DNA of 64,000 bases from Hyalangium ruber (lineage in GTDB: Bacteria > Myxococcota > Myxococcia > Myxococcales > Myxococcaceae). Shown here in pieces: positions 21,760 through 26,485 of this stretch (its first letter is position 1; each line of letters opens with the position of its first letter). Under the pieces are notes generated by a model. That model searched no databases. It was not told where the DNA came from and saw nothing but the letters and a program-made list of their open reading frames with translations. Where the stretch lies: assembly GCF_034259325.1 (NCBI RefSeq), contig NZ_JAXIVS010000001.1:868001-932000 (forward strand). Reading direction: 5' to 3'. A program made the position numbers and the translations under genes.

Positions 21760-22194
21760 TCACTGCGGGAGGCCGCAGCGGATCCAGGTGAGGATCGCGG
21801 TCCGCTCCTCGAGCGTCATGGGGACTCCGGAGTCGGGGGGCGGCATGGAGCAGTCGCGCACGTTGGTGCGGATCGTGTCCTGCCAGTCCGCGACGTGTCC
21901 GTAGTCCGCCAGGGACCAGGGCCCTCCCGGGGTGCCGGCGTGGCAGGTGACGCACCGGCGCTCGAAGATCGGCGCCACGTCCGCATAGCGTGGCGCTGGC
22001 TCCGGGCAGCTGGTGGGTGACGGAACGGAGCACGTGGAAGGGTTCTCGTTTCCTGGCCCCGCGTCGGGCACCTGGACTCCCGCATCCGCCTCGCTCCCGG
22101 GAGGAGTCGGCGTCGAGTCGCCACATGCCACCACCAGGAGGCAGCCGCCGAGGGCTGCCCATGAACCCAAGACTCTCTTCGTTCTGTCGCGCAT
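21760..22194 (-). CDS. Lipoprotein with a CxxCH heme-type motif
   Basis: A 144-residue lipoprotein (signal MRDRTKRVLGSWAAL, lipobox VVAC). A Pro/Gly-rich linker leads to a short domain with RRCVTCHAG, a c-type heme attachment motif, and a nearby Met in CSMPPPDSGVPM that could be a second heme ligand. The spacing (PIFERRCVTCH, then LADYGHVADW and LTWIRCGL) matches short exported cytochrome-like proteins common in myxobacteria. Heme binding is predicted, not shown. It converges on gspN and is divergent from the YcnI-like operon. Confidence 0.75.
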   Translation of the reverse strand: MRDRTKRVLGSWAALGGCLLVVACGDSTPTPPGSEADAGVQVPDAGPGNENPSTCSVPSPTSCPEPAPRYADVAPIFERRCVTCHAGTPGGPWSLADYGHVADWQDTIRTNVRDCSMPPPDSGVPMTLEERTAILTWIRCGLPQ

Positions 22195-22305: not shown

Positions 22306-22992
22306 ATGAACAAGACAATCGCAGCGCTGATGATGGGAACGGGACTCTTCCTCGCGCCGGCAATGGCCAGCGCCCACATCTCGGTCTCGGGAACGGGCTT
22401 CGCCAATTCGACGCAGGAGTTCTCCTTCAACGTGGGCCACGGCTGCGCGGGGGCCGACACGTACAGCGTGAAGATGGAGATCCCCGCCGGGGTGACGTCG
22501 GTGCGCCCCATGCAGAGTGATTTTGGCCGGGTCTCGGTCGAGAAGAACGCGGCGGGAGATGTGATCTCCATCACCTGGCAGAAGGCGGACGCGGACGTGT
22601 TCGCCTCGGACATCAGCTATTACAAGCTCGCGGTTCGGCTCAAGGTCCCCAACGCGCCGTTCACCACCGTGTACTTCCCGACCTACCAGACCTGCAAGGC
22701 GGCCGACGGGACGATCTCCACCACCAACTGGGTCGGCACGCCGACGTCCCAGGCCGCGGAGCCCGCGCCCGAGCTCCGCGTGCTGCCGGCGCGCAAGCCG
22801 GGGTGGAACAAGTTCACCGTCCCCATGGCTATCTCCGACCTGAGCGTTTATTTCAGCGACGCGCAGATCGTGTGGAAGGGGACCGCGGCCTACAGCGCCA
22901 ACCCGGCCACCGCGGAGCTGGCGACGGCGACCTCGGGCGTCACCGCGCTCACCTCGCTGCAGGCCAATGACGAGATCTGGGTGAAGTACTGA
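22306..22992 (+). CDS. YcnI/DUF1775-type exported copper-binding protein
   Basis: The protein has 228 residues from ATG 22306, chosen over an ATG five codons earlier because GAGGGG is well spaced for it. A signal peptide should be cut after ASA, leaving His24 as the mature N-terminus (HISVSG). In characterised YcnI proteins an N-terminal His helps bind Cu(II). The DUF1775 signature GHGCAGADTYSVKMEIPAGV and a Trp-containing strand (ISITWQKADAD) are present. Unlike most members it has no C-terminal membrane helix and no CopC/CopD gene beside it. It heads a four-gene operon of exported proteins. Confidence 0.85.
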   Translation: MNKTIAALMMGTGLFLAPAMASAHISVSGTGFANSTQEFSFNVGHGCAGADTYSVKMEIPAGVTSVRPMQSDFGRVSVEKNAAGDVISITWQKADADVFASDISYYKLAVRLKVPNAPFTTVYFPTYQTCKAADGTISTTNWVGTPTSQAAEPAPELRVLPARKPGWNKFTVPMAISDLSVYFSDAQIVWKGTAAYSANPATAELATATSGVTALTSLQANDEIWVKY

Positions 22993-23195
22993 TGCGGCGC
23001 GCTCGAATGAAGGCTCGGTGGCTGTGGCTGCTCGTTCCGCTGATGGCGGCCTCGTGCTCGGACGACCCGGAACCTCCCAAGGAGGAGGAAGAGAAGCCGG
23101 GCTTGAGCGCATGCCTCGACCAACCCAACGCGCTGGCGCGGCCGCCTTCGGGGCAGTTGCCCTGCGAGCTGCTGCCTCCCGGCTTCTCGAAGTAA
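22992..23195 (+). CDS. Small Cys-containing lipoprotein
   Basis: The frame opens at ATG 22992, overlapping the previous stop by one base (TGATG); a second ATG at 23007 would give a cleaner signal peptide. The product of 62-67 residues has a lipobox MAASC, an acidic Glu-rich linker (PPKEEEEKP) and two Cys in the mature domain (SACLDQPN, LPCELLPPG). No family is recognised. Small size, lipid anchor and place in the operon suggest an accessory to the YcnI-like protein or the outer-membrane protein that follows. Confidence 0.68.
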   Translation: MRRARMKARWLWLLVPLMAASCSDDPEPPKEEEEKPGLSACLDQPNALARPPSGQLPCELLPPGFSK

Positions 23196-23205
23196 GACCG
23201 CTGGA

Positions 23206-24096
23206 ATGGTGAAGACCTGTACGGCCGCCCTCGCGGCGGCCCTGCTCCTCGTGGCACCGGCGGCCTTCGCCTGTGCCACGTGTGCCTGCGGGGATCCAAC
23301 GCTCACCTCCATGGGCACCGAGCAGCCCTTCGCCGGCCGTCTGCGGCTGGCGGCCACGATGCGAGCCTGGGGGATGACAACGGGAGATGCCACCCTGGAC
23401 GCGGTCACCCTGCGTGAGCTGCGCATGGATGTGGCGGCCTCCTACGCGCCCCTGCGGTGGCTGTTCCTGTCCGCCACGCTCCCGCTGCAGGCCCGTGGGG
23501 TGCGGAACGTGAGCCTGGCGAGCGAACGCTCTTGGGGGCCCGGCGACCTGGAGGTCAGCGCCAAGGCCTTTGTCTTCCGAGATCGGGAGTTCTCGCCGGA
23601 TCACCTCATCGCCATATTGGTGGGCGCCGAGCTGCCAACCTCGCCCACGGTGCATGACGCGGAGGGCCGCCCCCTCTCGCTCGATGCCCAGCTCGGCACT
23701 GGCTCTTGGGATCCGTTCGCGGGGCTGGCCTACACGATGTTCCGGGGCGAGTGGTCCTTCATCGCCAGCGCGACGGGCTACCTGCCGACCCGGGGCCGCA
23801 TGGGCTTCCGCGGGGGAGCGTCCCTGCGGAGCACGCTGGCGGCGCAGTACCAGCCCACGCCCCGCTGGGCTTTGCGCCTGGCGGCGGACACCCGCCTGGA
23901 GGCGGCCAGCGACCTCCTGGGCGTACCGGATCCCGCCGGAAAAGGCTTCATCGGCTTCCTCTCCCCCGACGTGCTCTACAGCCCCACCACGGATGTCGTC
24001 GTCCAGCTTGGGGTGCGTGCGCCAATCCTCAACCTGCTGAGCGGCCCCGTGCGGCAGACACCCATCCTCCAAGCCGCCGTGGCCTACGACTTATGA
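23206..24096 (+). CDS. Outer-membrane beta-barrel protein with N-terminal CATCACGD motif
   Basis: A 296-residue exported protein. The signal peptide ends near FACATC; the mature N-terminus therefore carries CATCACGDPTLT, a Cys triad likely to bind metal. The remainder is a run of amphipathic beta-strands with Trp/Phe/Tyr turns and ends in an aromatic-free but hydrophobic VAYDL, compatible with an outer-membrane barrel of about 12 strands. The family is not known to me by name. Its place after YcnI-like and small lipoprotein genes suggests metal passage or sensing at the outer membrane. Confidence 0.72.
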   Translation: MVKTCTAALAAALLLVAPAAFACATCACGDPTLTSMGTEQPFAGRLRLAATMRAWGMTTGDATLDAVTLRELRMDVAASYAPLRWLFLSATLPLQARGVRNVSLASERSWGPGDLEVSAKAFVFRDREFSPDHLIAILVGAELPTSPTVHDAEGRPLSLDAQLGTGSWDPFAGLAYTMFRGEWSFIASATGYLPTRGRMGFRGGASLRSTLAAQYQPTPRWALRLAADTRLEAASDLLGVPDPAGKGFIGFLSPDVLYSPTTDVVVQLGVRAPILNLLSGPVRQTPILQAAVAYDL

Positions 24097-24818
24097 AGAC
24101 AGCGATCCTGCCCACCCTGCTCTTGCTCCCTGCCCTCATCGGGTGCGGCTCGCGCGAGGAAGGCCTGCGCCTGCACCTGGGGCTCGCCTTCCACGCGGAG
24201 CAAGGAGCGTGGGGAGAGAGCTCCTCGCGCCAGTTCACCAACGATCGCGGGGAGCACATCACCCTGAGCCGCGCGTACCTCACCGTGAGCAGCGTGGAGA
24301 TCATCCCCTGCCCGACGCTGAGCGCATGGCGCTGGTTGCGCCAGCTCTCTCCGGTGGGAACGGCCCATGCCCACTCCGAGTCCCATCCCAGGCGCCTGGG
24401 GACGCCCCATGTCATCAGCCTGGAGCGGCCCGACGGAGAGGCGCTGGCCCTGGGCACCCTGCACCCGCCGCCCGCCGCCTACTGCCGCGCGCGACTGGTA
24501 CTCGGGCCGGCGGACGCGGATGCGGAGGGCGAGCCCATCCAGCTGGGCATGGAGGGGAAGACCCTGCGGCTGGAGGGCACCGTCGTCCCCGCCAGCGGTG
24601 GGCCCGCGCAGGCCTTCACGCTGGAGAGCGCCGCGGTCGCCAATGCCGAGGTGCCGCTCGAGGCGCTCAGCCTCACTCAAGAAGCGCCCGAGGCACACCA
24701 GCTCCTCACCCTGGCCTATGACCGTTGGCTGGATGGAGTCTCACCCCTGGATCCCGAAGCCGCGACCCAGGCGGTGCGCAATGCCGCCGCCTCCGTCACG
24801 ATGGCTCCCTCGCCCTGA
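24093..24818 (+). CDS. Lipoprotein of a putative metal-handling operon
   Basis: A 241-residue lipoprotein (signal MKTAILPTLLLLPAL, lipobox LIGC) starting at ATG 24093 and overlapping the barrel gene by four bases. A His-rich loop AHAHSESHP lies near residue 95. The beta-rich layout (LHLGLAFHAEQ; LSRAYLTVSSVEIIPCP) is reminiscent of periplasmic MbnP-like copper proteins, but I cannot confirm membership. It is the last gene of the operon and converges on the histidine kinase at 24833. Role is inferred from context only. Confidence 0.7.
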   Translation: MKTAILPTLLLLPALIGCGSREEGLRLHLGLAFHAEQGAWGESSSRQFTNDRGEHITLSRAYLTVSSVEIIPCPTLSAWRWLRQLSPVGTAHAHSESHPRRLGTPHVISLERPDGEALALGTLHPPPAAYCRARLVLGPADADAEGEPIQLGMEGKTLRLEGTVVPASGGPAQAFTLESAAVANAEVPLEALSLTQEAPEAHQLLTLAYDRWLDGVSPLDPEAATQAVRNAAASVTMAPSP

Positions 24819-24832
24819 GATTGCCCTCCGGG

Positions 24833-26485
24833 CTAGGGGTGCGCGGCCGGCGGGCTGCGCGGCAGCCTCACGGTGAAGACCGTTCCCTCGGTGGCGGTGG
24901 AGCGAACATTCACGGTGCCACCGTGGGCGAGCACGATGTGGCGCACGATATAGAGCCCCAGGCCAATGCTGCCCTTCTCTTGATCCACGATCGCCGTGCC
25001 CCGCTCCAGCGGCTCGAAGATCCGGGGGAGCAGCTCCGGAGAGATCGGCGCTCCACGGTTGTGGACCTCCAGCACCACGGCATCCTCTTCACCGCGCGTC
25101 TCCACCCGCACCGGCGTCTCCGGTGGGCTGTATTGGAGCGCATTGCCCAGCAGATTGGAGATGACCTGCGCCAGCCGGTCCGAATCCCACTCGCCCTCTC
25201 CCCTCCCCGTCTGCGAGATCTGGATGATTCGATCGGGGCGGGAGAGTTGCGCCTCATCCACCACCGTCCGCGCCACCTCGTGCAGATCCGTGGCCTTGCG
25301 CTGAACGCGGATGCCCCCACCCTGCCGAGCCTGGGTGAAGTCCAGCAGGTCGCGGATCATCCGGGTGGCGCGCTCGGCGGCCAGGAGGATGAGGTGGATG
25401 CGTTGCTGCTGCCGCTCGTCGAAGGCCTGGCGCTTCAGGGCGGAGACGGTCAGCGTGATGGCGCTGAGCGGATTGCGAAGGTCATGGCTGACAATGCCAA
25501 TCAACTGTCTCTCGAACTCGGCGCTCTGACGGGTCTCTTCCTCCAGGCGCTTCTGCTCGGTGACGTCCACCATCGCGCCCGTGAAGTGCGTCGGCTGGCC
25601 CTGCGCGTCCAGCAAGACGCGGCCCTGATCGCGGACCCACCGCGTGCCAGCGTCCGGCAAGAGGAGGCGGTATTCCTCGACGAAGCCACGGTGCTCATGG
25701 ATGGCGCGCTGGATGGCCGCCTGGACTCGCTGCCGATCTTCCGAATGGATCCGGGAGAAGAAGTCCTCCAGGGGCTGGCGGGTCTCCACGGCCTCCAGTC
25801 CGAGGATGCGATTGGCCCCGGCATCTCGCGTGTCGAGGCCCGTCTTCAGGTCCACGCTCCAGGTGCCGATGTTGGCGGCCTGCAGTGCTGAACGCAGGCG
25901 CTCCTCACTCTCGCGCAGCGCCAGGGCCAGCGTCTCCACCTCTTGCCGGGCCTCCCGTTCGCGGGCCAGGAGCTCGCTGCGCTCGGCCTCCGCGCGCCAG
26001 GCCCGCTCCTCCGCCTCCTGCACCGCTGTCAGCGAGTCCTCCGCCAGGACTCGCCGCGCACGCTCATCCGCCAGCGCCCGCTTTCGCACCCACTCGCGGC
26101 GCACCAGCGCATGCACTCGCGCCACCAGCTCCAGCGGGCGGAAGGGCTTGAACACGTAGTCGTTCGCGCCTGCCTCCAGCCCCTTCACCACGTCCTCCAG
26201 CCCGTGATGCACCGTCAGCAGGAGCACGGGCAGCGTCTCGGTCGCGCGGTTGTTGCGCAGGTACTGGCAGACCTCGATGCCGGAGAGGCCGGGCAGCTCC
26301 CAATCCAGTACCAACGTATCGGGGAGCGGCTGCTGACCGAGCGCTTCCAGCAGACTCTCACCATCCGTGAAGGAGGTGATAATGCAGGTACGAGCGAGCG
26401 CTGCGCGGATGTACTCCGTCTCCGTCGGACTGTCGTCCAGGATCCAGATGCTAGGACGAGAATCCGCTGAGGGACTGGGCGTCAT
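24833..26485 (-). CDS. Hybrid sensor: receiver, PAS and histidine kinase
   Basis: A 550-residue cytoplasmic protein. An N-terminal receiver has Asp61 in LVLDWELPG. A coiled coil (about 130-200) leads to a PAS fold (ESEERLRSALQAANIGTWSV) with a PAC tail, then the dimerisation helix with His334 in GIVSHDLRNPLSA, and a HATPase domain (VISNLLGNALQYSP; GSIGLGLYIV). There is no membrane segment. Receiver-first kinases of this type usually take input from another kinase. It is divergent from the FHA-type activator at 26704; a regulatory link is possible but unproven. Confidence 0.93.
   Translation of the reverse strand: MTPSPSADSRPSIWILDDSPTETEYIRAALARTCIITSFTDGESLLEALGQQPLPDTLVLDWELPGLSGIEVCQYLRNNRATETLPVLLLTVHHGLEDVVKGLEAGANDYVFKPFRPLELVARVHALVRREWVRKRALADERARRVLAEDSLTAVQEAEERAWRAEAERSELLAREREARQEVETLALALRESEERLRSALQAANIGTWSVDLKTGLDTRDAGANRILGLEAVETRQPLEDFFSRIHSEDRQRVQAAIQRAIHEHRGFVEEYRLLLPDAGTRWVRDQGRVLLDAQGQPTHFTGAMVDVTEQKRLEEETRQSAEFERQLIGIVSHDLRNPLSAITLTVSALKRQAFDERQQQRIHLILLAAERATRMIRDLLDFTQARQGGGIRVQRKATDLHEVARTVVDEAQLSRPDRIIQISQTGRGEGEWDSDRLAQVISNLLGNALQYSPPETPVRVETRGEEDAVVLEVHNRGAPISPELLPRIFEPLERGTAIVDQEKGSIGLGLYIVRHIVLAHGGTVNVRSTATEGTVFTVRLPRSPPAAHP

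Follow-up and report, generated by a model that had tools for sequence, protein, structure and literature searches.

A rearranged myxobacterial gene cluster that likely belongs to an envelope copper-handling locus of the MbnP/MbnH kind

Four tightly packed genes in Hyalangium ruber, a soil-dwelling predatory bacterium, probably help the cell to handle copper at its surface, as judged from sequence comparison, structure prediction, and analogy with known systems. The genes encode a YcnI-like protein, a small lipoprotein, an outer-membrane barrel, and a second lipoprotein, here called g4. We think it rather likely that the locus comes from a myxobacterial cluster of the MbnP/MbnH type for envelope copper handling, of which it is one rearranged part.

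Genes of the locus

The window, that is, the whole stretch of DNA analyzed, comprises 64,000 nucleotides (G000:C1:868001-932000) of a 10.8-Mb myxobacterial genome. Its relevant features are:

21760-22194, minus strand: mono-heme cytochrome c lipoprotein (CVTCH), divergent from ycnI
22306-22992, plus strand: ycnI (DUF1775), open reading frame; its TGA shares 1 base with the next ATG
22375-22377, plus strand: codon of His24, the predicted first mature YcnI residue (A-x-A, then His, in 16/16 homologues)
22992-23195, plus strand: small lipoprotein, open reading frame; an alternative start at 23007 is possible
23206-24096, plus strand: barrel, open reading frame; 10-base gap after the small lipoprotein
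23272-23289, plus strand: CATCAC codons (CxxCxC, the predicted mature barrel N-terminus and predicted lumen plug), from alignments
24093-24818, plus strand: lipoprotein g4, open reading frame; ATGA overlap of 4 bases with the barrel

The four reading frames from 22306 to 24818 are open and, by codon bias, coding. A preliminary description of the locus had reported four tightly packed plus-strand genes, and this is the case: a 1-bp overlap, a 10-bp gap, and a 4-bp overlap separate them. The four would be transcribed as an operon, whose limits are drawn from spacing alone because a scan of the locus found neither a sigma-70-like promoter nor a terminator. Upstream of the cluster lies the gene for GspN of the type II secretion system (TIGR04411, E 5.5e-76). 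Between it and ycnI is the cytochrome c lipoprotein gene, absent from the preliminary gene list, which has the same neighborhood in Hyalangium. Specifically, its relatives in the loci L092 and L142 lie between mbnH and ycnI. The protein matches PF13442 (Cytochrome_CBB3) at E 1e-4, below the cut-off. Downstream of g4, a hybrid histidine kinase (24833-26485) is encoded convergently. We considered this kinase as a partner and dropped it, its strand and domains differing from those of RegB-like kinases.

Conserved gene pairs

Genes around homologues were called by a codon-usage script, and families were labeled by BLAST clusters and HMMs. The order survey covered 117 genomes: 74 of them encode the barrel, 55 encode g4, and 39 encode the YcnI protein. 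In 51 of the 55 genomes with both proteins, close homologues of the barrel and g4 are encoded no more than 3 kb apart; a distance of at most 30 kb between ycnI and the barrel gene, by contrast, was seen in just 2 of 38 genomes in this survey. Given these distances, and given that the small lipoprotein gene follows ycnI, the conserved units are ycnI-small lipoprotein and barrel-g4. Thus, the gene-order survey proposed in the preliminary description yields two conserved pairs and no relative with the four-gene order. The exact window order appears in no other genome surveyed, and the four-gene operon, unique to this genome among those tested, does not stand as a conserved unit.

One could argue from these results that the neighborhood arose by chance: two unrelated pairs were joined by rearrangement and share no function, and the barrel is no more than a usual COG4313 channel, which takes hydrophobic compounds. 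The restriction of the four-gene order to one surveyed genome, the barrel-YcnI linkage in 2 of 38 genomes, and the fold match of the barrel to COG4313 channels all speak for such an arrangement. We nonetheless regard chance as quite improbable. Each pair has its own, independent link to mbnP-mbnH (mbnPH), the loci and the genera being different, and both pairs occur together in Hyalangium. In addition, the CxxCxC motif is nearly invariant in the barrels here, and the accessible part of the COG4313 paper (PMC4493636) makes no mention of it.

Linkage to mbnP and mbnH

In the closest relatives, from Hyalangium, both pairs lie within about 5 kb around mbnP-mbnH. The order is barrel, g4, mbnP, mbnH, cytochrome (minus strand), ycnI, small lipoprotein in the loci L092 (G115) and L142 (Hyalangium versicolor), which the survey places in one genus, g3. 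The middle genes there are MbnP (TIGR04052, E 3e-84; PF20243, E 3e-43) and MbnH (TIGR04039, E 8e-152). A strict mbnH lies within 15 kb of g4 in 17 of 54 genomes, of the barrel in 13 of 54, and of ycnI in 13 of 38, compared with 0.13-0.18 expected by chance for random positions; these counts are not independent because the genomes are related. The linked ycnI-mbnH cases come from Hyalangium and one further genus, identified as Corallococcus through matching contig records. Distant lineages provide independent support for the mbnPH link: the barrel, g4, mbnP, mbnH, and RegB/RegA-like genes are grouped in L103, L104, L212, L213, and L210. The last of these is from another class of Myxococcota, and the module spans several families.

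The window itself carries no mbnPH. The genome possesses two strict mbnPH pairs elsewhere, at C4:455 kb and C11:25 kb. The pair at C4:455 kb lies behind clusters c52-c55, the same four genes that precede barrel-g4-mbnPH in Hyalangium. Moreover, the window order, cytochrome-ycnI-small lipoprotein-barrel-g4, is a circular permutation of the Hyalangium order minus mbnPH. A tandem duplication or an excision, followed by relocation and loss, could have generated the window order together with the tight junction between the small lipoprotein and barrel genes. We infer that the window locus is a displaced, rearranged part of an MbnP/MbnH-associated cluster. The earlier statement that the genes match no described system is, in that case, not right.

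MbnP binds copper after MbnH turns a Trp into kynurenine. The pair has been described as "mysterious partners" of methanobactin operons (GenProp0940; PMC3621798). Outside Myxococcota, the neighbors of mbnPH include PCu(A)C and SCO in Paracoccus, DUF2946 and TonB receptors in Ideonella, and methanobactin genes in Methylocystis. The Myxococcota loci differ from those of other phyla in that a 12-strand outer-membrane barrel stands where TonB receptors often stand, and in their RegB/RegA-like companions.

Several further observations concern these loci. This genome and several relatives carry, besides the true mbnH, a divergent MbnH-like di-heme gene that is convergent to it (L131:8480-9568 and L094:11084-12187; also L134 and L140). 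On plasmids, the di-heme protein MbnH is labeled "methanobactin export MATE transporter MbnM" (L226:6899-8050, L227:6920-8089, L229:6770-8041), which looks like a naming error. Finally, the record titled Comamonas sp. KCTC 72670 (L154) has Myxococcus gene order, and its organism label is probably wrong.

RegB/RegA-like companions

A two-component pair that resembles RegB/RegA comes after barrel-g4 in Myxococcus, Corallococcus, and Citreicoccus. M. xanthus, for example, carries barrel-g4-RegB-RegA (L155). Of the RegB- and RegA-like proteins at such loci, two gave matches to NF033792 (6e-71) and to NF033791 (4e-58) that fall short of the curated cut-offs. Homologues of RegB/RegA (PrrB/PrrA, ActS/ActR) are thus encoded directly after barrel-g4 in many relatives; none is in the window, and this genome has its best RegB/RegA-like pair on contig C4, at 688 kb. 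By sequence resemblance, these genes suggest control by the respiratory redox state. Such control would suit the supply of copper to oxidases. It also points to redox, and not specifically to copper, and to that extent counts against the copper reading.

Indeed, the locus could instead be a redox or respiratory envelope module. The barrel and g4 would then carry a redox-active small molecule, a protein, or electrons, in concert with heme enzymes of the MbnH type and cytochrome lipoproteins, and RegB/RegA would exert control; CxxCxC would be a thiol switch, and copper would be incidental. The RegB/RegA-like genes after barrel-g4 in the three genera above and in several distant lineages agree with this alternative, as do the MauG-like nature of MbnH and the cytochrome c lipoproteins that recur at barrel and mbnPH loci. 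We consider it unlikely. MbnP proteins bind copper where tested, and mbnPH adjoins copper genes in other phyla. The YcnI family, too, binds copper where tested (PMC8424229). A separate case of a cytochrome c lipoprotein gene, at L235:9461-9970 in a Myxococcus relative, lies between mbnP and mbnH.

The YcnI-like protein and the small lipoprotein

The window YcnI protein matches PF07987 at E 2e-16 (61.1 bits; cut-off, 25). It has a signal peptide and is an HGC-type DUF1775 protein in which H24, H45, C47, C130, and W142 are invariant among 16 aligned homologues. In all 16, His24 lies directly behind the A-x-A cleavage site, which was predicted by eye. Thus, the YcnI-like protein with a predicted N-terminal His that the preliminary description had proposed is confirmed. 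Equivalents of the N-terminal His and of Trp142 are also present in three plasmid DUF1775 homologues from other phyla. In the published structure of Bacillus subtilis YcnI (BsYcnI), the ligands of Cu(II) are the N-terminal His (His27) and Glu50, and Trp137 is close by; ~95% of the family keep the His and the Trp (PMC8424229). E38 of the window protein probably falls near the place of Glu50, in a column that varies (V in L113).

The window locus has DUF1775, the predicted N-terminal His, and the conserved Trp in common with the B. subtilis ycn operon (YcnI, YcnJ, YcnK; PMC8424229, PMC12154828), but it lacks YcnJ/CopCD. Furthermore, unlike BsYcnI, the window protein is of the HGC subtype, its candidate Glu ligand is not strictly conserved, and a C-terminal domain of ~65 residues stands where a membrane anchor would be. 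The absence of CopC and CopD, reported earlier for the locus, extends to the whole genome, where neither family was found at E <= 1e-3. YcnI must therefore have other partners here. Linkage to CopC/CopD is a frequent companion of DUF1775 and no requirement for membership in the family.

Among the homologues examined, the ~65-residue domain occurs only in myxobacterial proteins; the three plasmid-borne DUF1775 proteins of other phyla are without it. Most myxobacterial homologues have HVHDL in this domain, and the window protein has ISDL. The loss of the two HVH histidines in the window clade counts against the copper reading, as does the separation of YcnI from the barrel in most genomes. A fragment at L126:7654-7767 (G006) resembles the end of the C-terminal domain, lacks DUF1775, and may be a remnant. 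PDB sequence searches with the YcnI profile and with the g4 profile produced nothing useful.

In most of the Myxococcaceae loci examined, a homologue of the small lipoprotein is encoded directly 3' of ycnI; 10 of these homologues fall in one cluster and 2 in another. They are 62-67 aa long and have a conserved end of the type LPxDLKPP/LPCELLPPG. The small Cys-containing lipoprotein of the preliminary description stands as a gene; its Cys does not hold beyond this genome and its Hyalangium relatives.

The outer-membrane barrel

An AlphaFold2 model of the barrel (pLDDT 84) has ~12 long strands. In Foldseek comparisons, the COG4313 channel 4rl8 (E 4e-13) and FapF 5o67 (E 4e-13) come nearest among solved structures. 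These two conduct hydrophobic molecules or amyloid and no metals, which weighs against the copper reading. The window barrel scores below the PF13557 cut-off (19.9 bits versus 22; E 9e-4), and PF13557 matches 10 of 19 relatives at E <= 0.01 (best, 3.9e-12). In comparison with the COG4313/PF13557 channels (Pput2725, 4rl8; PMC4493636) and FapF, the predicted 12-strand barrel is of the same size and likewise has an N-terminal segment before strand 1. It differs from COG4313 channels in the CxxCxC of that segment and in its marginal PF13557 match. It also differs in gene company, which consists of copper and heme proteins, whereas that of COG4313 channels and FapF relates to hydrocarbon degradation or amyloid.

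The N-terminal segment begins CATCACGDP, in keeping with the mature end CATCACGD read earlier, which is retained as a predicted mature end. Model confidence there is low (pLDDT 33-45). In 4rl8, the opening stretch of ~14 residues enters the lumen from the periplasmic side and folds there (PMC4493636). By analogy with COG4313 channels, the CxxCxC segment is predicted to plug the pore. A lipobox at the first Cys was ruled out, and cleavage by signal peptidase I is favored, because A-x-A fits and the residues at position -2 (R, W, E, F) do not fit a lipobox.

The motif is strikingly conserved. CxxCxC is invariant in 19/19 and 21/21 aligned homologues and is present in about 62 of 63 full-length homologues with an intact N-terminus (at least 61 of 62 clear N-termini), a count that is approximate by one, depending on whether L103 is included. 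By script count, CxxCxC continues with (G)DP or a similar sequence in 57 of 67 long homologues, and in all 57 the cysteines of the motif are the sole Cys. Inspection of the other ten by eye showed truncated starts in four; another four, L210-L213, carry CxxCxC with a different continuation; L207 has CxxC only; and L103 has an over-long called start, its first 60 residues stopping short of the motif, and an N-terminus that reads CRRGHAG in place of the motif, and was set aside as unclear. A search for the barrel on plasmids gave no match.

Barrels also occur in other company. Subfamilies of the CSVCxC/CSICGC type are present in the order without an adjoining g4 (L105-L111), and in L217 and L218 a barrel of this type adjoins an MbnH-like gene. 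In two loci (L168:2033-2599, L170:5967-6533), a distant Myxococcota barrel is followed by a lipoprotein of another family (FDDQ...VIDD), not by g4.

Lipoprotein g4

The AlphaFold2 model of g4 (pLDDT 85) finds the six MbnP chains of 7l6g (A-F) as its six best PDB matches, with probabilities of 0.92-0.99, E 2.5e-3, and a TM of about 0.4; the next PDB match has a probability of 0.20. We take this as a fold resemblance, that is, an MbnP-like predicted fold, because of the E value and TM and because sequence profiles give homology no support. The window protein matches no Pfam or NCBIfam family, TIGR04052 and PF20243 included, and none of 27 g4 homologues matches a Pfam family. The idea that g4 is an MbnP detectable by sequence was rejected: hhalign gave only signal-peptide or weak N-terminal matches. 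The MbnP motif WxW is mostly missing, occurring in 8 of 46 g4 homologues. This counts against the copper reading, as do the lack of significant sequence similarity to MbnP and the low TM. Thus, g4 resembles MbnP in predicted fold and in belonging to an envelope lipoprotein system, and it differs in lacking the MbnP sequence signature.

Cys73, Cys131, and His94 are conserved in the g4 family, and the other His residues vary. Of the lipoprotein with a His-rich loop in the preliminary description, the lipoprotein remains and the His richness does not, His94 alone among the histidines being invariant in the family.

A model for copper at the envelope

The locus most likely serves to acquire copper at the outer membrane; the barrel would be the port, and g4 and YcnI the carriers. 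The copper reading offered in the preliminary description gains strength, by inference, from the linkage of both pairs to mbnP/mbnH in relatives and from the MbnP-like predicted fold of g4. The notion is that copper would pass the outer membrane inward, the direction also suggested in the preliminary description, through or at the barrel and be held by the barrel Cys motif and by lipoproteins of the g4/MbnP type, g4 being located at the surface or in the periplasm. Copper would then be handed, as Cu(II), to the predicted N-terminal His site of secreted YcnI to supply copper enzymes. MbnP and MbnH, encoded elsewhere in the genome, would act in the same pathway, and the small lipoprotein and the divergent cytochrome c lipoprotein would also be parts of the cluster.

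The same proteins could serve the opposite end, namely, defense. They would then sequester or export surplus envelope copper, for example during predation. The thiol and His sites would suit sequestration too. Copper is reported to play a part in M. xanthus predation, and MXAN_0976 (MbnP) to occur in outer-membrane vesicles (work cited in PMC9548883). However, no known copper-efflux gene family was recognized among the neighbors of the four genes, and mbnPH elsewhere accompanies uptake and oxidase-assembly genes. We therefore judge defense improbable and prefer acquisition.

Apart from methanobactin uptake, few cases are known of how copper gets across the outer membrane. Our most specific proposal, tentative and open to doubt, is that Myxococcota possess an outer-membrane copper port that is not TonB dependent: a COG4313-like 12-strand channel with a CxxCxC metal site in its plug, which would operate with an MbnP-fold lipoprotein, MbnP/MbnH, and YcnI under redox control by RegB/RegA. 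An unnamed barrel family with a near-invariant CxxCxC and the orphan lipoprotein g4 are now tied to MbnP/MbnH and YcnI across Myxococcota. Given that M. xanthus is genetically tractable and carries barrel-g4-RegB-RegA, the idea is directly testable in that organism.
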